Origin: Amia ocellicauda
Taxonomy: Eukaryota; Chordata; Actinopteri; Amiiformes; Amiidae
NCBI RefSeq assembly: GCF_036373705.1
Contig: NC_089856.1
Coordinates: 3,481,501 to 3,545,500 of the forward strand
DNA length: 64,000 bases
Direction: 5' to 3'
In this document: piece by piece, positions 7,918 through 64,000 of the stretch
Layout: the number at the start of each line of letters is the position of its first letter
Position numbering within the stretch: the first letter of the stretch is position 1
Notes under the pieces: generated by a model
The model's input: the letters and a program-made list of their open reading frames with translations, nothing else
What the model was told of the DNA's origin: nothing
The model's database searches: none
Translations under genes and position numbers: made by a program

Positions 7918-9060
7918 CATTCCTGCAGGTGAGGACTGTTTACTCTGTGAATGCAGACTGACATCACTGCTCAATCACATTCACAGACTCATGTCAGTGT
8001 TTGTGTGTCAATATTTAGTAACCGGTCATGTTGTTGTTTTCCAGAACTACAAGAAGACAAAGAGCAGGTATATGAACTCCAGCCCGTCTTCCTCTTTTCT
8101 ATTGTATTGAATCCAGAGCCACAGCAGCCCTGACTCCTGAATATTATTGCAGAGCCCAGTGCGCAGTGCAGGATCCAGAGGGGGTTTCAGGAGCGCTGAT
8201 AGATGTTGCCCAGCACCTGGGCTCTCTGAAGTACAGAGTGTGGGAGAAGATGCTGGGGATTGTTCACTACAGTGAGTACTGGGGGCAGGGCCACAAGGGG
8301 GGAGGGGGATTTACAGACTTTCACAATACAGGAGCAACACTGAGCAGCATTCTTCCACTTAAATTAACCCAGAGCCAATGTCTGGTGTAACTGTAACATG
8401 GTTTTACATTCTTTTCCAAAATTATATCATCAATAACAAAACCAACTGAGTTTCTAAGCTGGTTTTCAGTTTCTAATCAGGATCATTCTGTATGAATTTC
8501 TCAACTGAGAAATAATTCTAAAATGATTCTAAATGATGACAATCCTAGAAATATATCTTAATTTTAAATTTCCATTCACTTCATAAAGTGAAGATGTATT
8601 AATTTTTCATTTTTTTTCAGCTATTTATTTATTTTAACTACCATTACAACATATGTAAGACACATGTGAATGTCTTTGTGCAGCTCAGTGTTGAATATTA
8701 ATCCTCTCTTTCTCTTTCAGCTCCTGTGACTCTGGACCCCAATACAGCATCCCTCCATCTCTCACTGTCTGAAGATCTAACCAGTGTGAGAGTCAGAGCT
8801 TCAAGTCTGAAGCTTCCTAACAACCCAGAGAGGTTTCAGTGGTGTTGTTGTGTGCTGGGCTCTGAGGGGTTCAGCTCAGGAAGGCACTGCTGGGATGTTG
8901 ACATGGGGGACAGATCTGACTGGTGGTTGGGTGTGACCAAAGAATCCAGCAAAAGATAAAATCACTTTTATCCCAGCAGAAGGTTCTGGACTCTATGGCA
9001 TTCTGAGGGGGCCTGTGTGTCTCCCAGTGAGAGAGTTCAGCACAGTGGGGAATATGTCAG
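7918..9060 (+). pseudogene. TRIM pseudogene, 3' half (end of exon 3, exons 4-6)
   Basis: On the plus strand the order is: the last bases of coiled-coil exon 3 ending cattcctgcag before gtgagg; exon 4 (8045-8067, 23 nt); exon 5 (8153-8271, 119 nt, encoding [20 protein letters not shown]); and exon 6 from 8721. Exon sizes equal those of the intact genes. The B30.2 exon reads [19 protein letters not shown] through [12 protein letters not shown], then stops at 8957. A frameshifted remainder continues to about 9060. RING, B-box and most of the coiled coil are missing because the TGTAGCG element abuts exon 3. It therefore cannot make a full TRIM protein. Confidence 0.85.
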
Positions 9061-16186: not shown

Positions 16187-16398
16187 TACAGTGAGGGAAA
16201 AAAGTATTTGATCCCCTGCTGATTTTGTACGTTTGCCCACTGACAAAGAAATGATCAGTCTATAATTTTAATGGTAGGTGTATTTTAACAGTGAGAGACA
16301 GAATAACAACAAAAAAATCCAGAAAAACACATTTCAAAAAAGTTATACATTGATTTGCATGTTAATGAGGGAAATAAGTATTTGACCCCTTCGACTTA

Positions 16399-17404
16399 TT
16401 ACTTGGTGGCAAAACCCTTGTTGGCAATCACAGAGGTCAGACGTTTCTTGTAGTTGGCCACCAGGTTTGCACACATCTCAGGAGGGATTTTGTCCCACTC
16501 CTCTTTGCAGATCCAAGTCATTAAGGTTTTGAGGCTGACGTTTGGCAACTCGAACCTTCAGCTCCCTCCACAGATTTTCTATTGGATTAAGGTTTGGAGA
16601 CTGGCTAGGCCACTCCAGGACCTTAATGTGCTTCTTCTTGAGCCACTCCTTTGTTGCCTTGGCTGTGTGTTTTGGGTCATTGTCATGCTGGAATACCCAT
16701 CCACGACCCATTTTCAATGCCCTGGCTGAGGGAAGGAGGTTCTCACCCAAGATTTGACGGTACATGGCCCCGTCCATCGTCCCTTTGATGCGGTGCAGTT
16801 GTCCTGTCCCCTTAGCAGAAAAACACCCCCAAAGCATAATGTTTCCACCTCCATGTTTGACGGTGGGGATGGTGTTCTTGGGGTCATTCCTCCTCCTCCA
16901 AACACGGCGAGTTGAGTTGATGCCAAAGAGCTCGATTTTGGTCTCATCTGACCACAACACTTTCACCCAGTTCTCCTCTGAATCATTCAGATGTTCATTG
17001 GCAAACTTCAGACGGGCCTGTACATGTGCTTTCTTGAGCAGGGGGACCTTGCGGGCGCTGCAGGATTTCAGTCCTTCATGGCGTAGTGTGTTACCAATTG
17101 TTTTCTTGGTGACTATGGTCCCAGCTGCCTTGAGATCATTAACAAGATCCTCCCGTGTAGTTCTGGGCTGATTCCTCACCGTTCTCATGATCATTGAAAC
17201 TCCACGAGGTGAGATCTTGCATGGAGCCCCAGACCGAGGGACACTGACAGTTATTTTGTGTTTCTTCCATTTGCGAATAATCGCACCAACTGTTGTCACC
17301 TTCTCACCAAGCTGCTTGGCGATGGTCTTGTAGCCCATTCCAGCCTTGTGTAGGTCTACAATCTTGTCCCTGACATCCTTGGACAGCTCTTTGGTCTTGG
17401 CCAT
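16399..17404 (-). pseudogene. Tc1 (DD34E) transposase, C-terminal frameshift
   Basis: The normal start is [20 protein letters not shown] (ATG at 17402-17404); the longer reading from 17488 only adds inverted-repeat sequence. The paired HTH domains and all three catalytic residues are intact: [18 protein letters not shown], and [11 protein letters not shown] with 34 residues between the second Asp and Glu. About 40 residues before the end, the frame breaks after LNDLD, probably through a 5-nt deletion in ttggagaggatctgc. The reading stops early at 16478. The family's ending ([15 protein letters not shown] through NKGFATK) is present in another frame and ends at the TAA at 16399. Confidence 0.9.
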
Positions 17405-17447
17405 GGTGGAGAGTTTGGAATCTGATTGATTGATTGCTTCTGTGGAC

Positions 17448-17542
17448 AGGTGTCTTTTATACAGGTAACGAGCTGAGATTAGGAGCACTCCCTTTAAGAG
17501 AGAGCTCCTAATCTCAGCTCGTTACCTGTATAAAAGACACCT
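17448..17542. repeat. Subterminal 39-bp perfect palindrome arms in the Tc1
   Basis: Arms 17448-17486 and 17504-17542 are reverse complements separated by 17 bp. They start aggtgtcttttatacagg. This hairpin lies between the transposase start and the right inverted repeat. Confidence 0.9.
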
Positions 17543-17773
17543 GGGAGCCAGAAATCTTGCTGATTAATAGGGGATCAAATACTTATTTCCCTCATTAACA
17601 TGCAAATCAATTTATAACTTTTTTGAAATGCGTTTTTTCTGGATTTTTTTGTTGTTATTCTGTCTCTCACTGTTAAAATACACCTACCATTAAAATTATA
17701 GACTGATCATTTCTTTGTCAGTGGGCAAACGTACAAAATCAGCAGGGGATCAAATACGTTTTTCCCTCACTGT

Positions 17774-20080: not shown

Positions 20081-23000
20081 CTATTCCACTGAGAGAGACA
20101 CCTTCACTGGGCAGATTCGCAGAGGGGAAAAAGGACAGAAGAATGGAAACAGCCTCTCACTGAATGTGTCTTTAAAGGTGTAGAGAGGTGTGCTGTCCCT
20201 GGGGTCAGACAATGACACCTCCCCCCTGTCATAGTCCAGCTGGACTCTGATCTTCTGGGGTTTCCTCTTCACAGCGAGTCGTGTCTCTGGTGAGGTCAGT
20301 GCTGTGTATTCCCCTCCAAACAGACCCATAGTCCAGAATCCTGCTGCTGGGCTCACACTGAAGTCTCCTTTCTTGTTGCAGGATTCGTTGCTTACACCCA
20401 AACACCAGGAAGATCCGTCCCCCACGTCAACATCCCAGCAGTGCATGCCTGAGCTGAACCCCTCAGAGCCCAGAATACACTCACATACATCAAATCTCTC
20501 TGGGTTGTCAGGAAGCTGCTGTCTCTCAGCTCTGTCTCTCGCACTGGATAGATCCTCAGACAGTGAGAGACGGGGGGATGCTGTATTGGGGTCCAGAGTC
20601 ACAGGAGCTGAAAGAGAAAGAGAGAAAGGATCAACACTGAGCTGCACAGAGACATTCACACGTGTCTTACATAAGCTGTAATGGAAGTTAAAATAAATAA
20701 ATACATCAATAAAAAGATGAATGAAATACTACATGTAAAACTTCTTCATAGAAATAGTAAATTAAAATATATTTCTGGAATTGTTGAAGAACTGCATGAC
20801 TTCCCCTGTGTGTCTGTGTAAACAAGGTCATTGTCTTACGGTCTTACTGTGCCATAGTTCAGACCTGATACCTAGAAGAACAGGGTCTGATAACACCAGC
20901 TTTCACCAACAATTTGCCTCATATGCCTCAATTTTCCTCAGTTTAGCCACATATGGGTCTTCCTGAGCAGTTGTCAGGCAGAAACCGAGTTTCCACTCAT
21001 CACGGGACAGACATGTGGGCCTGTTATCGTTCTCTCCTGTCTGGTCTGCATAAAATGCCTGTAACTTGTAACTTCTTTGAGACTCTATGCTGATATTGTA
21101 TCGGTGTTAGACTCTCCCAAGTTGGCTTGTTAATAAAACTTTCTGAACCTGGATCACATTTAAGTGGCAAAATGCTGCTCAGTGTTGCTCCTGTATTGTG
21201 AAAGTCTGTAAATCCCCCTCCCCCCTTGTGGCCCTGCCCCCAGTACTCACTGTAGTGAACAATCCCCAGCATCTTCTCCCACACTCTGTACTTCAGAGAG
21301 CCCAGGTGCTGGGCAACATCTATCAGCGCTCCTGAAACCCCCTCTGGATCCTGCACTGCGCACTGGGCTCTGCAATAATATTCAGGAGTCAGGGCTGCTG
21401 TGGCTCTGGATTCAATACAATAGAAAAGAGGAAGACGGGCTGGAGTTCACATACCTGCTCTTTGTCTTCTTGTAGTTCTGGAAAACAACAACATGACCGG
21501 TTACTAGATATTGACACACAAACACTGACATGAGTCTGTGAATGTGATTGAGCAGTGATGTCAGTCTGCATTCAGAAGACTATTGTCACAGAGAAAACAG
21601 TCCTCACCTGCAGGAATGATATGTCTTCAGCTCCCATCTCCTGTTCTAGGGCTCTGATTGTGTCTGAAAGAGATGATATCTTTCTTGTCAAGTTCTCAAT
21701 CTTCTCCTTCATCACGCCACTCTTTTTCTCCTCTTCCTCCCTCAGTGCAGCTATCCTGGCTGCCTCTTCATCTCGTAGAAACTGGTGAAGTTTCTCAAAC
21801 TCCTCCTTTATCTGCCTCTCTGTCTGCTGGGCCTGGGTCTGCAATGGAAAACATTGAGAGCATTTAGATCATGTCAGTGTGTCATCTTTAGACAGGTTTA
21901 TTGTGGCAGAATTACCTTAATATGTTCTGCGGTTTGATCACAGGTTGTTTTCACTTTATTGAAGGCTTTCAGCTTCTTCTGCAGGGGCTCCAGTGCAGTC
22001 TTGAATTCCTCCTGGAATGAAATGACAGAGTTGACACTACTGGAGAAACACACTGACAACAGGCCTCACTGCACACTGCAGTAATAAACCAGAGGTGTGC
22101 CCCCATGTGCTCCAGTGTCCCAGTGTTTCCATCACTTCTATCTGGGGATTGTCTGGGTATGACTCTCCTGGGCAGGAGCCCATCTGGAGCAGTTGACTTC
22201 CTCACAGAGAGAGCAGGGCAAGCTGTACCATTCAGGCAAATAAAGACTCCAGACACGCAGGACCTTTAATATGTGAGCGGATGATTATTTAATTGAATTA
22301 TATGAATCGTACAGCACAGAGAATTCACATTAGAGCAGAGCCTGTGACTCCCTGACTAACACAGATATCTGTAAATCCTGAACCGGATTCTAGGACTGAA
22401 CTCTCTGTAACAGGTTTAACATAAAACACAGACTGGATTATTTTAGTGCTCAGCAGCACACAACTGTGTAAGAACTGGAATATAAACTGTGTGGAAAACT
22501 ACCAGATTATTATTTCAGAAGAGTGTTGCTTTCCAGATACAAGTTGAGCACTGCTGATCAATGTGTTTCTTTGAAAACTTGCTTTTGTAAAATAAATGTA
22601 AAAATATTGAATCTAAACATGTCAAGCATCACATTCCTGGAGATGACATGGCACACACTGATATGAGGAACAGTGCTTTCATTATTACATTTTTAAAATA
22701 CCGGTGCCCTTGTGAATAGGCGAGAGGCCTGAAGAGATCTTATCTGATGTGCTAAACTATATTTAGTGTCTCAGTGCCTGTTTAGCCTCATTACTGGGAT
22801 CCATACAGGGCTCTACGAACAGTGGATTATTACACAGACACACAATAAGAGGACGGACAGTTTATTAAGCATGTGAAAAACAATTCATAATACAGTGATC
22901 TTACCTTCCGATCCAGCACAGCCTCCTCTGTGGGACAGAACTTATGATTCTTATGTTTTCTTGAAGTGAGACAATCAACACAGAGCAGCTCTTGATCCTC

Positions 23001-33888: not shown

Positions 33889-36800
33889 TCACAGCAGCTC
33901 TGATTCGCAGATTCGCAGAGGGGAAAAAGGACAGAAGAATGGAAACAGCCTCTCACCGAATGTGTCTTTAAAGGTGTAGAGAGGTGTGCTGTCCCTGGGG
34001 TCAGAGAATGACACCTCCCCCCTGTCATAGTCCAGCTGCACTCTGATCTTCTGGGGTTTCCTCTTCACAGTGAGTCGTGTCTCTGGTGAGGTCAGTGCTG
34101 TGTATTCCCCTCCAAACAGACCCATAGTCCAGAATCCTGCTGCTGGGCTCACACTGAAGTCTCCTTTCTTGTTGCAGGATTCGTTGCTTACACCCAAACA
34201 CCAGGAAGATCCGTCCCCCACGTCAACATCCCAGCAGTGCATGCCTGAGCTGAACCCCTCAGAGCCCAGAACACACTCACACACATCAAACCTCTCTGGA
34301 TTGTCAGGAAGCTGCTGTATCTCAGCTCTGTCTTTCACACTGGTTAGATCCTCAGACAGTGAGAGACGGGGGGATGCTGTATTGGGGTCTAGAGTCACAG
34401 GAGCTGAAAGAGAAAGAGAGAAAGCATTAGAAATCAACACTGAGCTTCACACAGACAATCACACGTGTCTTACATATGCTGTAATGGAAGTTCAAATAAA
34501 TAAATACATCAATAAAAGATTAATGAAATAATACATGTAAAACATTGTAGCGTTAAGGGGGGGTATATTTTGATAGAACATTCTAGCTCTGAGCTGAAGC
34601 TCTGATCTAAAGAAGATTTAAGTTACCAGAATTCCTGAGCTCATCGACCCATAAACTGTTCTACATCAAAGTGGCAGTCTTGAGAGGATGGCATTGAGAA
34701 TGGGCCAAATGGCTTGGAATCCCTGCTGTGAAAATGTCTGGGGAATATGGCGTGGAGGTCATAAAACTCTTTGAAGTAGGCGAGAGCCAAAATCCCGAAA
34801 CAGAGCTACGAACCCAGGCCAACCGGCATTTCCAAAAGATGGCATGGATTGACATCAGTCATAAATCAAGCCTCCTCCAATAGGACACTGGGGGCTGAAA
34901 GCGAAGTCCACTCTCGCAAACTCAAGAACCTATCATCTATGATCTGACAGGCGTATAAAAGCTAGCGTATGGCATCTTTTGTTCTCTCTCTCACCCGAAT
35001 CAGTAATCCGCTGCCACAGCTCAACTTGTAGCTCTGTTGCCAGAACCGAAACCGGAAACCAACTAAGTCTTTGCCGGCAACAGAAGAGTTAAACTGGGAG
35101 AAGGAACTTTTAAAGGACTTTATTAAGTAAGGAACTTTAGAAACTGCACTGCCCGCCTGTACCCACCTGATCAGTGGAGTGTATGCAGCTGGTCGACTGC
35201 AATACAAAAGTGTTCAGTCATTTAAATAGCTATTGAGTCTTAAAAAACTTGACCCTTGGAACAAACAGGGCCCTGCTTTCCTCAAAGACTTTGTCTTCAA
35301 GTAACTACGGTGGAACCCTGCTTACAAAGAAGAATTTTGTGCACAACCTTGGAGCCTTCAAACCAGTGGAAAATCTGTTTGGAAAAGACTCTACTTTCGC
35401 GAAACCCCAACTTCCAGGTGCATCGACTGAGTGGAAGTTCTTGGACAAAGCCAAACCGGACTGCCTTTGTTCCAAACAACACGGACCTCGTGCCGTGTGC
35501 TTTTATTTGAGCCCGAAGACAGAGAGGCCTCTCTGTGACGAAGTTCAGATATGTTCAACAGTTTGGAGTTTATTATTCATGACATTTGAGAAATCAATTA
35601 GAAATGTTATTCTGTGAGTCATAAACTTTAGGATGTGTAATATAATTTAGTATTTTCTTAAATATAAATGTGTGCTGCATTAAACTGTTTTGTTTGACAA
35701 TTTTAGAAATAAAAATCAGGTTGCAGATCTCCCTAAACTAGTAGACGGGCTACTGGCCAAAGCCAGGGGGAATCCACTGGTCATGGTACACATTGGAACC
35801 AATGACATAGGAAAAGGTAGGACAGAGGTTCTGCAAGACAAATTTAAAGAGTTAGGAACAAAACTAAAGAGCAGAACCTCCACAGTAGTTTTCTCTGAAA
35901 TACTTCCGGTACCACATGCCAGGCCAGGGAGACAGGCAGAGATTAGAAAGTTTAACACGTGGTTGAAAGCTTGGTGTAGGGAAGAGGGGTTTAGGTTTAT
36001 GGAGCATTGGTCTTTCTTCTGGGATAGATGGGACCTGTACAAACCGGACGGTCTACATCTAAAGAGAAGGGGGGCTAATGCATTGGGAGAGCATATGTGC
36101 AGTGAAATTGAGAATCATTTAAACTAGGAACCAGGGGGGCAGGGAGCTCTGACAATGTGAGATGTTCCACCAAGGAAAGAAAACCAAGGGAAACTGCCAG
36201 TAGGAAAGTCCTGAAATGTTTGTACCTCAATGCCAGAAGTATAAGGAACAAGATGTTAGACTTGGAAGCCACAGTGCTGGCGTGTGACTATGATGTTGTA
36301 GGAGTGACAGAAACATGGCTTACAGAAAATGATGGGGATGAATACAAGTTGGAAGGATACACACAGTTTAGGAGAGACAGGCAAAATCAAAGAGGGGGTG
36401 GGGTAGCATTATATGTGAAAAATGACATTGAGGCAGAAGAACTTGTATTAGATCCCAGTAACAGAACAGAATCTTTGTGGGTCAAACTTTTGAACAAGAG
36501 ATCTGGAGGATTAGCGGTAGGGGTGTGTTACAGGCCACCAAACTCAGATATTCAGAAAGATGCTGCATTGTACAGTGTAATCAGGACTGCATGTAGCAAG
36601 GATGTGGCTGTTATAATGGGGGATTTCAATTTCCCAAACATAGACTGGGAAAGCCCAGTGGGGACTACAGAAGCAGAAATAGAAATGGTTGAGATGGTAA
36701 ATGACTGCTTTCTAACTCAATTTGTCAGGGAACCAACCAGAGAGAGAGCATGTATTGACTTGATCTTTTCAAATGACCAAGATAGAGTCAGGGGGACACT

Positions 36801-47034: not shown

Positions 47035-47274
47035 ACTATTATTTATTTATTACAGACGCCCTTATCCAGGGCAACTTACACAACATAAGAACATTATTAA
47101 AAGTGCAATACAGTATACAATTACAGATCAAAACAGTACAAATTACAAGTTCAAAATCACAAAAGCGCATAAGAACAAATAGAGTAAATCCAGGTCCTAC
47201 ATGCTTGTGAGCTAATAATTGCAGACAAGATGTGAAGTCACAGTCAGAGCTCAGGGGAGGGACACAGGGGGATC
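47035..47274 (-). mobile_element. L2 LINE 3' tail abutting the minisatellite
   Basis: Minus-oriented tail (cagacgcccttatccaggg at 47054 onward, then acatcttgtctgcaattatt-type sequence). It runs directly into the first minisatellite unit at about 47275. Confidence 0.65.
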
Positions 47275-50200
47275 AATATATAGTGTATGCGTCTTAGTAT
47301 ATAGTGTGTGCGTCTTAGTATGTAGTGTATGTGTCTCAGTATGTAGTGTGTGCGTCTTAGTATGTAGTGTATGCGTCTCAGTATAGTGTATGCGTCTCAG
47401 TATAGTGTATGTGTCTCAGTATAGTGTATGCGTCTCAGTATGTAGTGTATGCGTCTTAGTATGTAGTGTATGCGTCTCAGTATAGTGTATGCATCTCAGT
47501 ATGTAGTGTGTGCGTCTTAGTATGTAGTGTATGGGTCTCAGTATGTAGTGTATGCGTCTCAGTATAGTGTATGCGTCTCAGTATGTAGTGTATGCGTCTC
47601 AGTATGTAGTGTATGCGTCTCAGTATAGTGTATGCGTCTCAGTATGTAGTGTATGCGTCTCAGTATGTAGTGTATGCGTCTTAGTATGTAGTGTATGCGT
47701 CTCAGTATAGTGTATGCGTCTCAGTATGTAGTGTGTGCGTCTCAGTATATAGTGTATGTGTCTCAGTATAGTGTATGCGTCTCAGTATGTAGTGTATGTG
47801 TCTCAGTATATAGTGTGTGCGTCTCAGTATGTAGTGTATGTGTCTCACTATAATGTATGCGTCTCAGTATGTAGTGTATGCGTCTCAGTATGTAGTGTGT
47901 GCGTCTCAGTATGTAGTGTGTGCGTCTCAGTATAGTGTATGCGTCTCAGTATGTAGTGTGTGCGTCTCAGTATGTAGTGTATGCGTCTCAGTATAATGTA
48001 TGCGTCTCAGTATATAGTGTGTGCGTCTCAGTATGTAGTGTGTGCGTCTCAGTATAATGTATGCGTCTCAGTATATAGTGTGTGCGTCTCAGTATGTAGT
48101 GTATGTGTCTCACTATAATGTATGCGTCTCAGTATGTAGTGTATGCGTCTCAGTATGTAGTGTGTGCGTCTCAGTATGTAGTGTGTGCGTCTCAGTATAG
48201 TGTATGCGTCTCAGTATGTAGTGTATGCGTCTCAGTATGTAGTGTGTGCGTCTCAGTATGTAGTGTATGTGTCTCAGTATAATGTATGCGTCTCAGTATG
48301 TAGTGTGTGCGTCTCAGTATGTAGTGTATGTGTCTCAGTATAGTGTATGCGTCTCAGTATGTAGTGTATGCGTCTCAGTATGTAGTGTATGTGTCTCAGT
48401 ATAATGTATGCGTCTCAGTATGTAGTGTGTGCGTCTCAGTATGTAGTGTATGTGTCTCAGTATAATGTATGCGTCTCAGTATGTAGTGTGTGCGTCTCAG
48501 TATAGTGTATGCATCTCAGTATGTAGTGTATGTGTCTCAGTATGTAGTGTATGTGTCTCAGTATAATGTATGCGTCTCAGTATGTAGTGTATGTGTCTCA
48601 GTATGTAGTGTATGCGTCTCAGTATGTAGTGTGTGCGTCTCAGTATATAGTGTATGCGTCTCAGTATATAGTGTATGTTTGTCAGTATAGTGTATGCGTC
48701 TCAGTATGTAGTGTATGTGTCTCAGTATGTAGTGTATGTGTCTCAGTATAATGTATGCGTCTCAGTATGTAGTGTATGTGTCTCAGTATAATGTATGCGT
48801 CTCAGTATGTAGTGTATGTGTCTCAGTATAATGTATGCGTCTCAGTATGTAGTGTGTGCGTCTCAGTATGTAGTGTGTGCGTCTCAGTATGTAGTGTATG
48901 CGTCTCAGTATAGTGTATGCGTCTCAGTATAGTGTATGCGTCTCAGTATGTAGTGTATGCGTCTCAGTATGTAGTGTATGCGTCTTAGTATGTAGTGTAT
49001 GCGTCTCAGTATAGTGTATGCGTCTCAGTATGTAGTGTGTGCGTCTTAGTATGTAGTGTATGCGTCTCAGTATGTAGTGTATGCGTCTCAGTATAGTGTA
49101 TGCGTCTCAGTATGTAGTGTATGCGTCACAGTATGTAGTGTATGCGTCTTAGTATGTAGTGTATGCGTCTCAGTATAGTGTATGTGTCTCAGTATAGTGT
49201 ATGCGTCTCAGTATGTAGTGTGTGCGTCTCAGTATATAGTGTATGTGTCTCAGTATAGTGTATGCGTCTCAGTATGTAGTGTATGTGTCTCAGTATATAG
49301 TGTGTCTCAGTATGTAGTGTGTGCGTCTCAGTATAATGTATGCGTCTCAGTATATAGTGTATGCGTCTCAGTATGTAGTGTATGCGTCTCAGTATGTAGT
49401 GTATGCGTCTTAGTATGTAGTGTATGCGTCTCAGTATAGTGTATGCGTCTCAGTATGTAGTGTATGCGTCACAGTATGTAGTGTATGCGTCTTAGTATGT
49501 AGTGTATGCGTCTCAGTATAGTGTATGCGTCTCAGTATGTAGTGTGTGCGTCTCAGTATATAGTGTATGTGTCTCAGTATAGTGTATGCGTCTCAGTATG
49601 TAGTGTATGTGTCTCAGTATATAGTGTGTCTCAGTATGTAGTGTATGCGTCTCAGTATAGTGTATGCGTCTCAGTATAGTGTATGCGTCTCAGTATGTAG
49701 TGTATGCGTCTCAGTATGTAGTGTATGCGTCTTAGTATGTAGTGTATGCGTCTCAGTATAGTGTATGCGTCTCAGTATGTAGTGTATGCGTCTCAGTATA
49801 GTGTATGCGTCTCAGTATGTAGTGTATGCGTCACAGTATGTAGTGTATGCGTCTTAGTATGTAGTGTATGCGTCTCAGTATAGTGTATGTGTCTCAGTAT
49901 AGTGTATGCGTCTCAGTATGTAGTGTGTGCGTCTCAGTATATAGTGTATGTGTCTCAGTATAGTGTATGCGTCTCAGTATGTAGTGTATGTGTCTCAGTA
50001 TATAGTGTGTCTCAGTATGTAGTGTGTGCGTCTCAGTATAATGTATGCGTCTCAGTATATAGTGTATGCGTCTCAGTATATAGTGTGTGCGTCTCAGTAT
50101 GTAGTGTGTGCGTCTCAGTATAATGTATGCGTCTCAGTATATAGTGTATGCGTCTCAGTATATAGTGTGTGCGTCTCAGTATGTAGTGTATGTGTCTCAC

Positions 50201-52872
50201 TATAATGTATGCGTCTCAGTATGTAGTGTATGCGTCTCAGTATGTAGTGTGTGAGTCTCAGTATATAGTGTATGTGTCTCAGTATAGTGTATGCGTCTCA
50301 GTATGTAGTGTATGTGTCTCAGTATATAGTGTGTCTCAGTATGTAGTGTGTGCGTCTCAGTATAGTGTATGCGTCTCAGTATGTAGTGTATGCGTCTCAG
50401 TATGTAGTGTGTGCGTCTCAGTATGTAGTGTATGTGTCTCAGTATAATGTATGCGTCTCAGTATGTAGTGTGTGCGTCTCAGTATGTAGTGTGTGCGTCT
50501 CAGTATAGTGTATGCATCTCAGTATGTAGTGTATGTGTCTCAGTATGTAGTGTATGTGTCTCAGTATAATGTATGCGTCTCAGTATGTAGTGTATGTGTC
50601 TCAGTATGTAGTGTATGTGTCTCAGTATGTAGTGTATGCGTCTCAGTATGTAGTGTATGTGTCTCAGTATGTAGTGTATGTGTCTCAGTATAATGTATGC
50701 GTCTCAGTATGTAGTGTGTGCGTCTCAGTATGTAGTGTATGCGTCTCAGTATAGTGTATGCGTCTCAGTATAGTGTATGCGTCTCAGTATGTAGTGTATG
50801 CGTCTCAGTATGTAGTGTATGCGTCTTAGTATGTAGTGTATGCGTCTCAGTATAGTGTATGCGTCTCAGTATGTAGTGTATGCGTCTCAGTATAGTGTAT
50901 GCGTCTCAGTATGTAGTGTATGCGTCACAGTATGTAGTGTATGCGTCTTAGTATGTAGTGTATGCGTCTCAGTATAGTGTATGTGTCTCAGTATAGTGTA
51001 TGCGTCTCAGTATGTAGTGTGTGCGTCTCAGTATATAGTGTATGTGTCTCAGTATAGTGTATGCGTCTCAGTATGTAGTGTATGTGTCTCAGTATATAGT
51101 GTGTCTCAGTATGTAGTGTGTGCGTCTCAGTATAATGTATGCGTCTCAGTATATAGTGTATGCGTCTCAGTATATAGTGTGTGCGTCTCAGTATGTAGTG
51201 TGTGCGTCTCAGTATAATGTATGCGTCTCAGTATATAGTGTATGCGTCTCAGTATATAGTGTGTGCGTCTCAGTATGTAGTGTATGTGTCTCACTATAAT
51301 GTATGCGTCTCAGTATGTAGTGTATGCGTCTCAGTATGTAGTGTGTGAGTCTCAGTATATAGTGTATGTGTCTCAGTATAGTGTATGCGTCTCAGTATGT
51401 AGTGTATGTGTCTCAGTATATAGTGTGTCTCAGTATGTAGTGTGTGCGTCTCAGTATAGTGTATGCGTCTCAGTATGTAGTGTATGCGTCTCAGTATGTA
51501 GTGTGTGCGTCTCAGTATGTAGTGTATGTGTCTCAGTATAATGTATGCGTCTCAGTATGTAGTGTGTGCGTCTCAGTATGTAGTGTGTGCGTCTCAGTAT
51601 AGTGTATGCATCTCAGTATGTAGTGTATGTGTCTCAGTATGTAGTGTATGTGTCTCAGTATAATGTATGCGTCTCAGTATGTAGTGTATGTGTCTCAGTA
51701 TGTAGTGTATGTGTCTCAGTATGTAGTGTATGCGTCTCAGTATGTAGTGTATGTGTCTCAGTATGTAGTGTATGTGTCTCAGTATAATGTATGCGTCTCA
51801 GTATGTAGTGTGTGCGTCTCAGTATGTAGTGTATGCGTCTCAGTATAGTGTATGCGTCTCAGTATAGTGTATGCGTCTCAGTATGTAGTGTATGCGTCAC
51901 AGTATGTAGTGTATGCGTCTTAGTATGTAGTGTATGCGTCTCAGTATAGTGTATGTGTCTCAGTATAGTGTATGCGTCTCAGTATGTAGTGTGTGCGTCT
52001 CAGTATATAGTGTATGTGTCTCAGTATAGTGTATGCGTCTCAGTATGTAGTGTATGTGTCTCAGTATATAGTGTGTCTCAGTATGTAGTGTGTGCGTCTC
52101 AGTATAATGTATGCGTCTCAGTATATAGTGTATGCGTCTCAGTATATAGTGTGTGCGTCTCAGTATGTAGTGTGTGCGTCTCAGTATAATGTATGCGTCT
52201 CAGTATATAGTGTATGCGTCTCAGTATATGGTGTGTGCGTCTCAGTATGTAGTGTATGTGTCTCACTATAATGTATGCGTCTCAGTATGTAGTGTATGCG
52301 TCTCAGTATGTAGTGTGTGCGTCTCAGTATGTAGTGTGTGCATCTCAGTATAGTGTATGCGTCTCAGTATGTAGTGTGTGCGTCTCAGTATGTAGTGTAT
52401 GCGTCTCAGTATGTAGTGTGTGCGTCTCAGTATGTAGTGTGTGCATCTCAGTATAGTGTATGCGTCTCAGTATGTAGTGTGTGTGTCTCAGTATGTAGTG
52501 TATGTGTCTCAGTATAATGTATGCGTCTCAGTATGTAGTGTGTGCGTCTCAGTATGTAGTGTGTGCGTCTCAGTATAGTGTATGCGTCTCAGTATATAGT
52601 GTATGCGTCTCAGTATGTAGTGTATGTGTCTCAGTATTTAGTGTATGTGTCTCAGTATAATGTATGCGTCTCAGTATGTAGTGTATGTGTCTCAGTATGT
52701 AGTGTATGTGTCTCAGTATAATGTATGCGTCTCAGTATGTAGTGTATGTGTCTCAGTATGTAGTGTATGTGTCTCAGTATAATGTATGCGTCTCAGTATG
52801 TAGTGTATGTGTCTCAGTATGTAGTGTATGTGTCTCAGTATGTAGTGTATGTGTCTCAGTATGTAGTGTATG
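47275..52872. repeat. 5.6-kb minisatellite, 19-21-bp units, with higher-order structure
   Basis: The consensus unit is tgcgtctcagtatgtagtgta (21 bp; quoted once as two parts: tgcgtctcag and tatgtagtgta). A 19-bp variant lacks one tg (cagtatagtgta), and there are variants atatagtgta, ataatgta, tgtgtctcag and tgcgtcttag. There are about 270 units. Larger segments repeat: the stretch from 49887 recurs at 50981 (1,094 bp later) with the same order of variants, and again from 51953 (972 bp later). The array sits 0.3 kb upstream of the ODAD3-like gene promoter. Open frames inside it (VCVSVCS heptads) arise because 21 is a multiple of three and are not genes. Confidence 0.95.
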
Positions 52873-53151
52873 CACCACGGGGTGAATAATGTCCTACCTA
52901 GTGGTTGTAAAATACAGTCCTCCTAAAATACTAACTTAGTTAGATAACTTAATCTGTGTGGTGCTTTCTACTTTCAATTGTGTGCACAAAGCTCACTATC
53001 CTGATTCCAGAGGAAACGCGTCTCCTTTGGCTTTGGGAGAGAGCAGCGTTTCTCCAGAGGTACGCGTGTAAAACTACAACACCCAGCATGCACTGCTCCG
53101 AGCCTCGTCCCGGCGCCACGCGTTCCGTGTGTGTATGTGCGACGGCGGGCG

Positions 53152-56700: not shown

Positions 56701-58630
56701 CATTGAGTAAAAAATTATATCTAAATCCCTTGCTCACTTATATCAATGGTTCCCATCCCTGGTCCTGGAGGACGCCCTACCCTGCTGGGTTTTGTTCCAA
56801 CCAAGTTCTCAATTTATTAATTGAACCTTAATCAAGTAACAATCTGCTTAGATTACATTTTTTAAATTGTGCAATGAAAGAGCTGGTTCTTTAATAAGTT
56901 CCTCATACAATTCTATACTTAACTTAAACCCCCTACTGTTTAAAACAATTAAAAGGCTCTGGTTTAGGAATTTATTAGTTCAATTAAGGGTTCAATTATG
57001 TATTTGAGCGCTCTGTTGGAAAAAATCCCCCAGTTGCACTGATCAAAGCCTTGCAGGAGTCTAGTGACTTATGATCATCCAAATAAATTACAGCTTTTCC
57101 ATTGATTCAGTCAAACAAAAATAAATGAATACAATACTTCCTCACAGCCACACAAGCAAAATACAAAACAGAAAGCTACTGTTTAAAGAACTCGACAGCG
57201 GTAGTCGATTCTGACCAGGCGTGCAGACGTCATGCCAACTCGCCGAATTTCGGTTCAGGGTCGTGCCTCAGTGTCTTTTGTTGCCTGTCTATTTACATGT
57301 TGTTTGGCGGGGGGGGTTGGGGCTAGCCCTGGTTAATGGGGTCTCTCTCTATGCCCGTCTCCCACAGTGAGCAGCAGATGGTGGAGGAGGCCAAGGCTCG
57401 CCTGAGGGCCGTGGAAAAGCAACGATACGCATTCCAAGAGAATTCTCAGCAGGTGACCCGCACCCTGAATGCAGTGACCATCGGGGTGAAGCACCTGAGT
57501 AACATGCTGGACCACATCAAGCAGGTAAGCCCCGCCCCCTTTCTCCCCGCGGAGAGATCTGCAGCCGGCCCGGCACACAGATTAGTGGCTCCTGGACCAC
57601 AGAGCCCAGCTTGTAGAAAGCTGGAAGTGAAAGGGCACTGCGGAGATCTACTATAGTGGTTTGACACGGGGAGGAGAGCTGTCTGACACTGTGGTTCAGC
57701 TGTCCACAAATGAGCCTTTAGTGACTAAAAACAATGCCTGGAAAGTTAGAATGGGAAACTAGAATAGTACACTGTACTAGTGTACGATTTGTAAAGTGGA
57801 AAGTCTTCCATCAGCGTTGTGTTTTGAAGCCAGTGTCTGTCTGTAGCAGCAACATCGACATGTTTGAATGTAAACAGTGCATGTATTTTGTACGCAGCAG
57901 CTACCTGCCTGTGTGTGTTTAAACCAGGCTTATGGAGAAAGAAATCAGGACTGCAGTGTCTGGGTCAAATTGCATGTAGTAGGTGCCGTAATTGGAGTTT
58001 GAGTTGATGAATCAGAGGAACTGATCTGTGGAGTACAAAGCTAGGCATTTCTAGGCATTTCGCACATCTAGGACAGGGGTAGTTAAGACCCATTCTATGC
58101 CCATAGACATCTTAATGTAAATTTCCAGCTGAAATATGGAAAGAAGGTCTGGAGGGACGGCGAGGGATCTCACTTAATCACACATTTATTTCTCTCTCTC
58201 TGTCCCTCTCTCAGGGTTGGTACGGGTGCTTGAAATCCTTGAAAATGCTTGAATTTTAATGTGGTATTTTCAAGGTTGTGAAAGTGCTTGAATTTTGAAT
58301 AAAGTGCTGGATTTTTGTGAAAAATGATTAAATGAATGATCTTGGGGATATAACTACAATGGTTGGGGAGCCAGTTGATTGCTTTATGCCGCGCCCAGTG
58401 CGACTCCTGTTGGATGAGCTGGTGTGTTTGATGCGCTGAGTGTGAGCCGCTGAGACAGCGCGCATCAGCGCCCAGTGAGGCAAATGTGCCACAATGCTGC
58501 CGTTTCAGAGGAGGGGGCTCCATAACATTGAATATACACTCTGGTTAAAACAAGGTCCACATTTGCGGATAGCATTGTAATACTTTGCATTAGTATCTGC
58601 TGGTCTCTGCTTTTTTATTTTTTTAAATAC

Positions 58631-58661
<31 letters not shown>

Positions 58662-60435
58662 TAAATAACATGTTGATGGTTTAGTATTCAAAATCAATTA
58701 TTATAATGTGTAATTCCATTTAAGAAAATTAAAAAAGCAGAGACCAGCAGATACTAATGCAAAGTATTTATTGCTGAGGGAGATTCCATAACATAAAGAC
58801 CGTCACTGTTTACTAGGTTAAGGATATAGGAACATTGAAGAGAATAAACATGATGCTGTTTTGACAGTAAGTGAGCATACTGAATATACATGGATTGACT
58901 CGTAGAACTTTGTTATGCTCTATTTTACATTTGCTCCTTGAATGTACATGGAAGTTCAATACAGAAAAGTGTTGATGTAGCTTTTTATGTTTTGCATGTT
59001 TAAAACAATTGTGTATTGGTGTTCACTAATTTTGACTGATTGCAAGATGGATTTATATTGATTTAATATCAACCTGATTTTAGCCAGGTAACAACACAAT
59101 GCCAAGTGTACATGAAGGCTCTCATGAAACAATTTTGCTGTTACAGCATAATAACATCTAATAGTGTGGTGAAATTATAATTTCATGTGCTTAGTTCAGT
59201 GCAGAAAAGTGTGCATTTTAGATGAGAAGGTTTAGTTCACCAAGGCTGTGAGGTGCTGGAAAATCTTTGACCTTGCACCTTGAAAGTACTTGAAAAGTGC
59301 TTGAATTTGACTTTTGAAAAGCTGTACGAACCCTGCTCTCTCTCTGTCTCTGTCCCTCTGTATGTCCCTACATTTGTCTCTGTCTCTCCACAGCCTAAGA
59401 GCTACGTCCCGGACGCCCCCGTACCCCCGTCCTCGGAGGAGGATGTGCATGAGCTCCTCTCCCAGGCAGTGCAGAAAGTGCTGCTGATGATAGAGGAGCT
59501 GAAGGGCAGAGACCTCGGTGATCACCAGAAGAAGGTGAGAGGAGCGCCGCCGCAGTGCACCTACACAGAGGACAGATCTGGGGACTTAATCACCAGATGC
59601 AGATACCTGAGACAAATGGACCATGAGATGTAAATGTCTTGGTTACATCGTAAGCAAAAGACCCTGTTGCCGTCCTGGAATCCAGGCTGTCGGCACCCAC
59701 AGCCTGCGACTATCAGCCCGAAACATCTGTACACCGGTGGATGATTCTGACAGGGCACAGATTTCTGTATGTCCAACCGTGGCCTGCATAATCTCTTGGC
59801 CAACGCTGTCTTCCACTAAACACGGGATCTAAACGACTACTACCTGAGTCCAGGATTTAGTGATTATGCATTTATTTACTCAAACTGATTATTTTATGTT
59901 TTATGAACATTCGTGAGCGTTCTTGGGCTCCTGTTGAACGGTGTGTGTAATCTGCATACGCTTGTTTCTAGTTCCTCGCCAGAATCGAAAATAATATCCC
60001 ATACTACAACATAGGGATCAAACTCCCCGAGATGCAGATATATGACACTGAGTGTTTGCTTGCATTGTTTTCCACTACCATCATATTTCCGACACCTCTG
60101 GAAGCAGCGTGTGTAACAGAGTGCTTTTTGTCACAGTTGTAACATCTCTCGCTGAGCTTGCTAGAGCTTTCAAAGCCACTATCCAGGGCCAGAGCAGACC
60201 CATTTGTACTGAGCGGTTCTGATAAAAGTTCCCCCCTTCCGGCGTGTGACCCTCTTCTGTCCCCTGCTGTGTCGTAGAAGAAGAGGACAGTGGCGAGGAT
60301 GACCCGGAAGTACTGAAGCGCGACATGCTGGAGCGCCAGTCCCAGCGCATCGTCGCCTACCACACCAAGGGGAAGGAGAAGAGGAGCAAGAAGAAGAAGG
60401 CAATTAGTAGCCCTACAGTATTTATCAGTTCTTGA
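53160..60435 (+). CDS. ODAD3: ODAD3/CCDC151-like outer dynein arm docking protein, central exons missing
   Basis: Recognised exons: up to 53307 (EQIDELRRRIRII), 53859-53971 (EGNKTAIYVSSQYTIEQYKD), 54273-54368 (VYKERKQRKRIGNKKEE), 55658-55764, 57368-57524 (RTLNAVTIGVKHLSNMLDHI), 59394-59534 (SYVPDAPVP, VQKVLLMIEELKG), from 59972 (FLARIENNIPYYNIGIKLP), and 60278-60435 (EEDSGEDDPEVLKRD, stop TGA). Order, motifs and the acidic then basic C-terminus match vertebrate ODAD3, a coiled-coil protein that anchors outer dynein arms to ciliary doublets. Six junctions have good GT-AG sites and agree in phase. Oddities: no in-frame ATG after the TAG at 53157; no donor in phase joins the last two exons; and the family's long coiled-coil segments after exon 2 and after exon 3 are absent. 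About 300 residues remain against nearly 600 in the family. It is either a decaying copy or a locus with deleted or unassembled exons. Confidence 0.75.
53744..53785 (+). repeat. (GT)n microsatellite in ODAD3-like intron 1
   Basis: Uninterrupted GT dinucleotides, about 21 copies, 75 bp before the next exon's acceptor. Confidence 0.95.
56149..56265 (+). pseudogene. Tc1 transposase fragment in an ODAD3-like intron
   Basis: Readable as HWSTEVCKKVIWSDESPFTI then FSTRGRVHV before a stop. This is the block around the first catalytic Asp of Tc1 transposases. A short, old relic without inverted repeats. Confidence 0.75.
56750..57035. repeat. Interspersed fish repeat (tggtcctggaggac type)
   Basis: The phrases ggtcctggaggacgccctac and caaccaagttctcaatttat recur widely in fish genomes as short non-autonomous elements. 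The boundaries are approximate. Confidence 0.4.
58212..59335. mobile_element. hAT-like non-autonomous element in an ODAD3-like intron
   Basis: The ends are CAGGGTTGGTACGGG and the complement of CAGGGTTCGTAC, with a near 8-bp duplication (ccctctct at 58204-58211, ctctctct at 59336-59343). Both ends carry inverted gtgcttgaa-type repeats. It lies in the pyrimidine tract about 60 bp upstream of the acceptor at 59393. Inside it a perfect 38-bp inverted repeat (58579-58616 and 58731-58768) flanks AT-rich DNA, possibly a second nested element. No transposase. Confidence 0.75.
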
Positions 60436-60556
60436 TTCCTAATTGGGTTCTTCCACTCCCACTCTCCTCCAGTTTATAATCTGGCACCACAGTTGATCTA
60501 TGTTGAATTTCACAGCCTACTAGGGTAAAATGGGCTGGATTTAGTGCAAACTTTCA

Positions 60557-61274
60557 AAGACAATGGCTTGCAAATGCTTATTAGGCAGTGTTGTTAAAGT
60601 TTTAATTGATATTTAATTGATTTCACTATACTGGTATAAATAACGCAGCAAGTCTCAGGATAGAAACGTCAACAGGCTGAGGTTCAGGCACTGCACTATG
60701 AGACGTCATTAGGGACATAATTCATCCTCTGGTACATACACTACATACTGGGACGCATACACTACATACTGAGACACATACACTATATACTGAGATGCAT
60801 ACACTATATACTGAGACGCACACACTATATACTGAGACGCATACACTACATACTGAGACACATACACTATATACTGAGACGCATACACTACATACTGAGA
60901 CACATACACTATATACTGAGATGCATACACTACATACTGAGACACATACACTACATACTGAGACACATACGCTATATACTGAGACGCACACACTACATAC
61001 TGAGACACATACACTACATACTGAGACACATACGCTATATACTGAGACGCACACACTACATACTGAGATGCATACACTATATACTGAAATGCATACTGAA
61101 TGGGTCCAGCTGACGTCTTTCCAGCAGAAAACAGTGCAGTGCCTGAACCTCAGCCTGTTGACGTTTCTCTCCTGAGACTGGGCTGCGTTATTTATACCAG
61201 TATAGTGAAATCAATTAAATATCAATTAAAACATTAACAACACTGCCTAATAAGCATTTGCAAGCCATTGTCTT
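60557..61274. mobile_element. Foldback structure: 141-bp inverted arms around minisatellite
   Basis: Left arm 60557-60697 and right arm 61133-61274 are reverse complements with about four differences and one indel. Each starts aagacaatggcttgcaaatg at its outer end and finishes aggcactgcact at its inner end. The interior (60735-61090) is about 17 units of the minisatellite of 47275-52872 in inverted orientation (catacactacatactgagac). Single-copy spacers join arms and array, each with gacgtc. No target duplication was established. Confidence 0.85.
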
Positions 61275-63255
61275 GTGGTTCAATCTCCTTAAAGCCTGAG
61301 AAATCCTGTCCCCCAATTTGTGTAACGCTCCAGACAGTGACTGGTGTTGTATTTTGAATAATGTTCAACCAGGATTACTAGCCATGCCAGTTCATTAACT
61401 GTCGCCATGAATTCAAGGAAACCATTAAGATGCTCCGTATTCTTACAATTATTAATCTGTTCAATCTCATAGTCATTTAATTTCACCCCCTCTTAGATGC
61501 AATCTTTACACTTTGAACTTGGTTTATTTTTAATGTCGCTCTTTGGAAAGTTTAATTTGACTTTAGCGCTCACAGAAACCTTTCTTCCTGACCAGGCGGT
61601 GGTGGTTGGTCAGTTTAGGTATTCTTTAAGTTATTTGTAATCAAAATCAATACAAATGTAAAATAAAATTAATATTTTAAAGCACAAACATTTAATTTTA
61701 TTTTCATTTAGTTTACCGATCCTGTATGGAATTGATAATACCTTGGTGAGGAAAAATAAAAACATCAAGACCTTACAGTTCTCACGTGTTTCTGTACAGC
61801 CTTAACAGTGTCAATGCTGAGAATTAATACAACTATCTAACTAACTAGACAGACACCCTGCATTTGTACTGTTTTAATGTCACATTGTGCTGTTCGGTCT
61901 GCTCTGACAGATCTGTGTCATGGAGTTAAGATAAGAGAGCGGCTGTGAATGTACGGGGCCGGATTCCTCGCAGCTTTTAACCTTTTGGTCCCGACAGGCT
62001 GGTCTCGGCAGAAGCCTGACCTTTTATTTTTTATTATTTTTTATATTTTTAGCTGGACTCTCCTCCCCCACCGAATTCTCCCCAGTGCGATCACATCAGA
62101 CCTTTTTAGCAAAACTTTGGATGACTCGGAGTGTAAAGAAATCAAGGAGGTCATTAAAACAATACTAATTTAATGTGTATACAGGGACACATCGAACAGG
62201 TTGATGAAGACATGAAGTTTATGATAGAAAGAGGAGTTGTAGTGAGGGAGAAAAGAGAGCTGCGTGATTGAAGTGTGTGAATAAAACCCGTTGATATTAA
62301 CCAGTCTGATTCCAGTCAAATTATTATTAAAGGAGGGATCTCTTCACCACCTCCTGGACCCAAACATTACATTACGTTTGTTATTTATTTGTCTGTTTTC
62401 CTTATTTCTAGTCCATCTCTATTTTTCTGCACCTTTTTGTTGTGGGTGGAAAAACAGCAACAGTGTGTATCCCTGTCGCACTGAAGACCTGCTTGATTGA
62501 CACATGATCCGGTGTGACTAGTGTGACTGTGTGTCCCTCTGCGCTTCTCTTTCACTGTTGCCTCTGTGGCTGCTGCTCCTTCTGGCCTCTGTCTGAGCTC
62601 TGTTTGAGTGCTGCTAGGTAGGTCTCACTCCCCGAGATGCTGAGACTGGAGATTTAACTAGAAAAAGTATAAATCTACTGGTTTAATATGCATATACTTA
62701 ATTATGTATACATATTTAATGTCTAAAGTTACTTTAGTATTTTAGTATTTATTTTTTCTTAACATCATGGGGCTCATTCTTTATTTCTGTAAGAGAAAGT
62801 TACTACTTTTGTTTGACCTTGGAGAGTTATCTAACTAACAAAGACTGCTGTGCTCATTGAAATGTCTTTCATAAGTTAAATAAGTATGCTTTCGTTTCAT
62901 TTACTTATTGTCAGGGGGAAAAATGTTTAAAATGGTGTTTTCATTCTTTATGTCTGTAAGAATGTTAGTAGTTAGTTGTGCTGACGCTGTTCAAACTTTT
63001 TACAGTCAATGCAACCAAGACCATTAAGGTCTTCAGACTGCACCCCCAAGCTATTGTAATGTGTAAATTATGTAAATATACTTACAGACACAGGTTTGTT
63101 TAAAACATATTGAGAGTGTTTACTTAATCTTATTGCATGAATGGATTACATTAGATATTTGTTTAAAAGAATATGATGTTTTGTTACTAGAGACAGCACT
63201 GACAAGTGATGACGGTGCTACACTGTGGGCGTATCCAGTATTGTAAGCATTACCT
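61275..63255. other. No gene recognised
   Basis: AT-rich intergenic sequence. The short ORFs at 61949 and 62291 show no motif. No exon of the zona-pellucida relic at 63260 was recognised here, though degenerate ones could be missed. Confidence 0.35.
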
Positions 63256-63259
63256 GTCG

Positions 63260-63980
63260 TATAGTTCTTCTAATGGTGACCAGAATTATCCCATGACCAA
63301 AGTCCCGTGGGACCCGGTGATTGTGGATCCTGGAGAGGACTGACCCCAACATCATCCTGACTCTGGAAGACTGCTGGGTCAACACCTCTGGCCCTCTCAT
63401 CCTCTCCCCAGTCGGACCTCCTGTTAGATGGGTAAGCTCTCCCCATCCCGACTCCCGGATCAGTTATTTTTACCTTGCTGACTAGTGGACTGACTCCTAA
63501 ATGACCCCCCCATCCAGGTGCCCATCCCAAACAGACAACTACCTGACAAGTTTAGTTCCAGTTGTGCGCTCCCCTCGAGCTGCCCTACCTGTCTCACTAC
63601 AACCGGCTCATTGTCGAGATGCCATGGCTCTGGAAGTCCAGAAGGAGAAGGTACTGGACTAGGAAATCTGCCTGGGTGAATGTGTGTGATTGTGTGAATG
63701 GCTGGAGCTGCAATATTTTCTGCCTTTCAAATTCATATGGGCAAGCTGTACATATAGGGCTTTTTTTCTTGTTGTTTTATTGTAAGGGCTTTGCCTTTTG
63801 AGGGCTAGCAAGTGTCCAAATGGAGATGAACAAGGCTCTCTTACCCCCTCAGGTGTTCATCCACTGTAGTGCAGCAGTATGTCACCCTACCCCAGAGGAC
63901 CACTCTGTTAAAAGCTGCAGCAGAGCAAGAGAGTGACCGACCTGGAGTCAGACCCCCTGCCATTCAGGCCCAAAGGCATT
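63260..63980 (+). pseudogene. Zona pellucida (ZP) domain glycoprotein pseudogene
   Basis: Three exons with intact GT-AG sites: 63260-63431, 63518-63650 and 63853-63980. The first reads YPMTKVPWDPVIVD, then in another frame RTDPNIILTLEDCWVNTSGP, then in a third frame DLLLDG. The second reads CPSQTDNYLTSLVPVVRSP, then in other frames LPYLSHYNRLIVEM and ALEVQKEK. The third reads VFIHCSAAVCHPTPEDHSVK and SCSRARE before a stop. These are the C-terminal half of a ZP domain, including its conserved cysteines, as in fish egg-coat ZP proteins. At least three frameshifts make it non-functional. The N-terminal part was not found, and more may lie beyond the right edge. Confidence 0.85.
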
Positions 63981-64000
63981 GTAAGTTGCCTTGCTCCCAG

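Follow-up and report, generated by a model that had tools for sequence, protein, structure and literature searches.

A 21-bp minisatellite lies between two inverted arms in the 64,000-nucleotide stretch of Amia ocellicauda DNA analysed here (C7:3481501-3545500; hereafter the window), and this arrangement raises the question of whether the arms and their core together constitute a foldback-type mobile element that has spread the satellite. Such an element had been proposed in an earlier, sequence-only reading of the same DNA. A search of the genome (988,188,214 bases in 385 contigs) showed that the window's inverted arms are incidental to the spread of the satellite, and that its vehicle is a different element. 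The features on which this answer depends belong to three dispersed repeats, here called R, M and T, and are listed below.

60055-60545, strand not given: left flank, matching at 94.6% identity that of a paralogous R+M locus, L037 (C7, about 3554.9-3555.4 kb)
60557-60697, forward strand: left inverted arm, matching the putative loop region of R (about 1500-1642 in the oriented L009 frame)
60697-60732, forward strand: left M head, the left terminal inverted repeat of M, TATGAGACGTCATTAGGGACATAATTCATCCTCTGG (score 48, reached by 0 of 1000 shuffles)
60735-61096, forward strand: 21-bp minisatellite, 17.2 copies of the unit CATACACTACATACTGAGACG, expanded subterminal repeats of M
61102-61274, reverse strand: right inverted arm, R in the opposite orientation (about 1673-1500), without the M interruption
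61275-61900, forward strand: third dispersed repeat, T (61900 is the end of the query only)
47273-52873, reverse strand: 5.6-kb array, 275.9 copies of the unit TCAGTATGTAGTGTATGCGTC, a second M-derived array
52875-52894, reverse strand: M head remnant bordering the 5.6-kb array on its right, matching 19 of 20 bases (score reached by 0 of 1000 shuffles)

The inverted arms and repeat R

The two arms pair over 60557-60697 and 61133-61274, where 142 alignment columns show 97.2% identity (E about 2e-64) with three mismatches and one gap. This similarity is far beyond chance and bears out the description of the arms as nearly identical reverse complements. The sequence-only reading was also accurate in counting about 17 units of the 21-bp repeat between the arms (17.2 copies, 60735-61096) and in placing them in the opposite orientation to a large array about 8 kb away; the unit TCAGTATGTAGTGTATGCGTC is the reverse complement of CATACACTACATACTGAGACG, and 7.9 kb separates the two arrays. 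R homology in the right arm extends 31 bp further inward (61102-61132) than in the left arm, and the arms are therefore unequal pieces of the repeat.

Used as a genome query, the left arm yielded 41 rows (40 of 49 candidates scored), four of which were the two arms in both copies of the locus. The remaining 37 rows represent at least 36 other places, 13 of them clustered on C6, and the arm is not single-copy. Sequence was fetched for the second locus copy and for 27 of the 36 other places, the nine omitted all belonging to the C6 cluster. That cluster (C6:1542995-2740650) spans 1.2 Mb and represents a local amplification, its 13 matches to the R arm region, at 88-90%, lying in both orientations.

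Comparison of the fetched loci placed the arm inside a longer repeat, R, away from its terminus. Alignments of R between loci reach about 1.2 kb in length, extending from the arm by about 900 bp in one direction and about 140 bp in the other. The repeat starts near GGTAACACTTTACAATAAG, the reverse complement of which terminates several copies, and in L031 both R ends are present, flanked by ACTTTAAT and ACTTTAAC. Twelve of the 27 fetched loci were examined for inverted pairs of at least 80 bp, and pairs attributed to R occurred in seven (L011, L012, L014, L021, L022, L023 and L031), the longest being 799 bp at 85% in L021. In the other five, the pairs of L009 and L019 were not counted as R, and three loci were without pairs. 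R is dispersed and foldback-like, its long inverted arms enclosing a loop, and in this respect the foldback origin proposed for the arm sequence holds. Judging from L021 and L022, the window arms probably correspond to the R loop and start at the stem/loop junction. Candidate eight-base target duplications were seen at L031 (7 of 8 bases) and around a 270-bp relative in L012 (8 of 8); none was found in L010, L017 or L023, three of the five R copies with both ends recognised. Two other identities for R, an LTR (the arm holds a TATA-like stretch) and a retroposon with an (AAT)n tail, were dropped, as R copies show inverted arms and GGTAACAC...GTTACC ends.

In a query spanning the join of right arm and flank, for which 40 of 210 candidates were scored, all 38 of the other scored places have T homology starting at query positions 143-146, equivalent to window 61275-61278, and the outer edge of the right arm is therefore the edge of T. 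No R homology was found in 61276-64000 by comparison with three R copies. Both arms stop at the same R coordinate, and the T edge accounts for the right side only. T itself occurs in diverging inverted pairs (C9:5707511/5710830, C11:1624047/1627370, C4:48099550/48102915, C6:45801106/45805904 and C3:54863863/54868678), with a gap between paired edges of about 3.1 kb in three pairs and 4.6 kb in two, an arrangement that would suit T as the long inverted arm of a separate and larger element.

Taken at face value, nearly identical inverted arms, a dispersed arm sequence and a foldback-like parent repeat could all suit 141-bp arms that are the ends of a foldback element carrying and dispersing the minisatellite core. 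This is nevertheless exceedingly improbable. The core was present in none of the 27 other fetched arm regions, and the arm region occurred on both strands in only one of them, L022, so that the dispersed inverted pairs to be expected of such an element did not appear. The junction of R with the M head was found at only four places in the genome (control 0), all within 3542-3602 kb of C7. Moreover, the arm is interior to R, the right edge belongs to T, and no target duplication flanks the window arms, the longest common word near their outer edges being five bases and not abutting the arms. The core, in turn, adjoins a different end, the M head, at 114 places. The combination of these arms with the core as a foldback mobile unit, and as a vehicle of satellite dispersal, is thus not supported.

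Transposon M and the dispersal of the minisatellite

A genome search with the array and its inner flanks gave at least 258 matches on many contigs (39 of 380 candidates scored), and 18 array regions were fetched from among the matches listed. An M head stood at the array edge in 11 of these 18, most commonly in the form TATGAGGCGCCGTTAGGGACATAATTCACCCCGTGG, and the flanks outside the head look unrelated by eye, except in the pairs L037/L038 and L040/L041. The other seven arrays were without an M head at the scan threshold, although one, L048, has a degenerate head; some arrays have therefore lost the head or spread otherwise. With up to three mismatches allowed, the 27-base head from GAGG to CACC occurred at 142 places, and the head plus first unit (35 bases) at 114, with a control of 0 in both cases. 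The 100 head-plus-unit places listed fall on at least 21 contigs. Where neighbours among these 100 lay less than 10 kb apart, 15 pairs were convergent (+-), none divergent (-+) and one in the same orientation (++), and the head is therefore a terminal inverted repeat.

Paired M ends are spaced from about 155 bp, in L055, to about 7.4 kb, at about C24:6120548-6127961 and C23:28832914-28840428. Five M copies were read at both ends, and all five carry 6-bp target duplications, exact in L043 (AATAAT), L056 (GTGAAG) and L057/L058 (CATTTT), and with one mismatch (5 of 6 bases) in L055 and L059/L060. In the same copies the 21-bp units run inward from the head, and in L055 a few units make up a complete element of about 155 bp. 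Array lengths in the fetched M copies range from about 0.35 to 5.8 kb, the longest being L045, with a head at one edge. M is thus a DNA transposon: its ends, TATGAGGCGCC...GGCGCCTCATA, are inverted, 21-bp units stand beside them, and the target is duplicated over 6 bp. It is M, not the arms, that has dispersed the minisatellite over the genome. In a region of L051 on C7 (2553-3244), two 21-bp arrays of opposite orientation adjoin each other, with only a few bases between them.

An ordinary minisatellite spread by local tandem or segmental duplication, with the head as no more than a shared flank, would be another reading. Many of the listed array matches are indeed clustered on C7 and C20, and heads have been multiplied in one orientation on two other contigs: on C2 the head recurs on one strand every 0.3-0.7 kb (C2:37160840-37165770, nine listed; 37.16 Mb), and on C1 every 20-27 kb (C1:34686889-34812750, seven listed; 34.69-34.81 Mb). 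M-bearing sequence has therefore been tandemly multiplied there. Such a reading is nonetheless quite unlikely: M heads are spread over at least 21 contigs and pair convergently by 15 to 0, 6-bp duplications are present, flanks look unrelated by eye, and L055 is complete at about 155 bp with few units. It is contradicted for the head-bearing copies and may hold for headless arrays.

The suggestion that a mobile element had spread the satellite therefore survives in part: dispersal was by a transposon, namely M, but the arms were not its vehicle, and there is no clear evidence among the 18 arrays compared that the small array of the window seeded the 5.6-kb array. The small array has 13% of 42-mers in common with a C20 array, L054, versus 3% with the neighbouring 5.6-kb array; for 25-mers the values are 50% for L054 versus 54% for the neighbour.

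History of the locus

Window 58048-64000 recurs from C7:3584800 onwards at 99.5% identity, so that the locus with arms and minisatellite is present twice in the assembly, about 45 kb apart. All four places with the R-M junction lie inside one duplicated stretch of the window's own contig, and comprise the window locus and its duplicate, plus the paralogues L037 and L038. In both paralogues M occupies the same R site as in the window, and is flanked by inverted pieces of the R stem, of 247 bp at 98% in L037 (2006-2252 and 2833-3079) and of 128 bp at 95% in L038 (2193-2320 and 2940-3067). The restriction of the junction to four local places and a left flank 94.6% like that of L037 point to a single entry of M into R, followed by local copying. 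Most other R pairs measured 83-93% (L022, 96%), and the near-identical arms of L037 and L038 suggest that conversion between arms may have operated within the cluster that these loci form with the window. At the window's M locus, CTGCAC just before the left M head is the presumed left copy of a 6-bp target duplication, of which the right copy is absent. Neither the small array on its right nor the 5.6-kb array on its left had a recognisable M head.

The locus very probably represents nested transposons: M would have inserted in the R loop, the locus would have been copied, and M would then have lost its right end and R most of its outer arms. In this account R is a non-autonomous repeat of old date, foldback-like, with its loop between long inverted arms, and M is a family in which the 21-bp repeats adjoining the ends have, in some copies, grown into arrays and become a dispersed minisatellite. 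At the ancestral locus, the insertion site of M may have been CTGCAC in the loop of an R copy. Copying along the contig would then have given L037 and the window locus, each doubled again in the 45-kb tandem duplication. With the loss of M's right end and most of R's outer arms, the window copy would have kept the left end of M and its array, flanked by two pieces of the R loop, one forward and the other inverted. M itself presumably moves by cut-and-paste through an IS3EU-type transposase, for which the subterminal 21-bp units may be the binding repeats, and these units could grow after insertion by slippage or unequal exchange.

Two candidate origins stand out for the inverted piece. When compared with R pieces from 13 of the 27 fetched regions, the two window arms were sisters (support 0.93), with 138 of 141 comparable columns alike, versus at most 113 of 126 columns with any of the 13 other pieces; shorter R pieces in the genome search were up to 92% like the left arm. 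In three of the four columns that differ between the arms, the right arm has the majority state of the other R copies, and the fourth column is mixed. The arms differ by 2-3%, versus 5.4% for the flank common to the window locus and L037. Since the right arm is free of M although the arms are closer to each other than this flank is to that of L037, either arm-to-arm conversion or an M-free template is needed.

In the nested-transposon account, the inverted piece most likely came from an R variant with the loop in its inverted arms, and conversion between the window arms may later have kept them alike. L022, with the loop on both strands, demonstrates that an R copy of this kind exists. A rival account, which departs from the first in the origin of the inverted piece only, is that a break in the M array was repaired by template switching onto an M-free R copy, with the piece arising as a local inverted duplication of the R loop. 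The sister relationship of the arms would suit this account (97-98% alike, when other R pieces of comparable length reach about 90% at most), as would the M-free right arm and the lack, at the threshold used, of a loop piece in L037, where the inverted arms come from the R stem. Against it stand the existence of L022 and the R arms of L037, which at 98% are themselves closer than most R pairs and point to conversion in the cluster. Template switching has an appreciable chance of being correct, one that stops somewhat short of probable.

Affiliation of M and its setting

In their termini, M copies resemble members of the IS3EU superfamily, which have TA..TA ends and usually 6-bp target duplications (PMC10045372). 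Like IS3EU and GingerRoot elements (PMC10045372), M combines the two features, with TATGAGG...CCTCATA at both ends of L043, L056, L057/L058 and L059/L060. TA has been lost at one end of L055, and the tip deviates from TA in two of the 11 array heads (L039 and L047). M differs in possessing a minisatellite, of which there is no mention for IS3EU or GingerRoot in the portions of PMC10045372 drawn on here. We infer superfamily membership from this signature, which fits IS3EU/GingerRoot.

The evidence for a transposase is suggestive only. A search with the Pfam rva_4 integrase core gave at least 127 matches (150 of 217 candidates scored), and 114 rva_4 matches were compared for proximity with 123 head places and 23 array places. 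Matches were near three M-type loci only: within 5 kb inward of the M heads at C4:46168770 and C24:15443912, and 0.7 kb beyond the headless C20 array in L052, as two open pieces of 35.5 and 18 bits (cut-off 26). The L052 integrase piece had no match among PDB sequences. A Pfam scan of 10 frames beside M arrays revealed no M transposase; five frames matched nothing, and the matches in the others were to Tc1-type transposase pieces (two), an IIGP GTPase, a Sushi domain and, weakly, an aspartyl protease. A search with rve (PF00665) scored 150 of 3149 candidates and has no bearing on the M transposase. It is, on balance, somewhat probable that M is a vertebrate IS3EU-type transposon in which 21-bp subterminal units, probably transposase-binding, expand into kb-size satellites, with one family acting as both dispersal vehicle and genome-wide minisatellite seed, and with stages from about 155 bp to 5.8 kb in one genome.

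The growth of satellites from tandem repeats at transposon ends has been described for Tetris (PMC4079207), and other cases are included in a review (PMC12628747). Tetris is a foldback transposon of Drosophila virilis with tandem repeats in its terminal inverted repeats and satellite-like arrays of kb size (PMC4079207). As described in the parts of that account used here, it is like M a DNA transposon with end tandem repeats that also form kb-size arrays, it exists in diverse rearranged forms, and no transposase-coding copy was found (PMC4079207). Compared by description, Tetris repeats are about 220 bp with target duplications of 8-10 bp (PMC4079207), whereas M has 21-bp units and 6-bp duplications. 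A Tetris-like process is evident in M, where the same 21-bp unit occurs in the ends of L055, L056 and L057-L060 and in kb-size arrays. The Xenopus MITEs Xstir and miDNA4 are similarly inverted-repeat elements with one to many units, whose arrays grow (PMC12628747); miDNA4 belongs to Tc1/mariner (PMC12628747), and its repeats differ from those of M, again by description. For R, the zebrafish Angel MITE, named in PMC12628747, offers a resemblance by description only, both being dispersed with inverted arms. No description of the M family was found in searches of the open-licence literature, and M and R may already stand in Repbase. What appeared to be a satellite in a hairpin becomes a case of a transposon seeding satellites, and M copies ranging from a few units to several kb, with ends and target duplications, could be used to time the growth of arrays after insertion.

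Elsewhere in the window, positions 16188-17773 hold an element of Tc1/Sleeping-Beauty type, whose 140-bp ends are 99% alike and whose open transposase frame of 347 aa matches HTH and DDE_3 domains. Frames with PRY-SPRY domains lie at 20084-20728 and 33892-34446, both on the reverse strand. Related stretches of 248 bp begin at 155, 5719, 8704, 20376 and 34172, the others being 86-90% alike to the one at 8704, and two of the five overlap two of the PRY-SPRY frames. Together, the stretches and frames suggest a tandem gene family.
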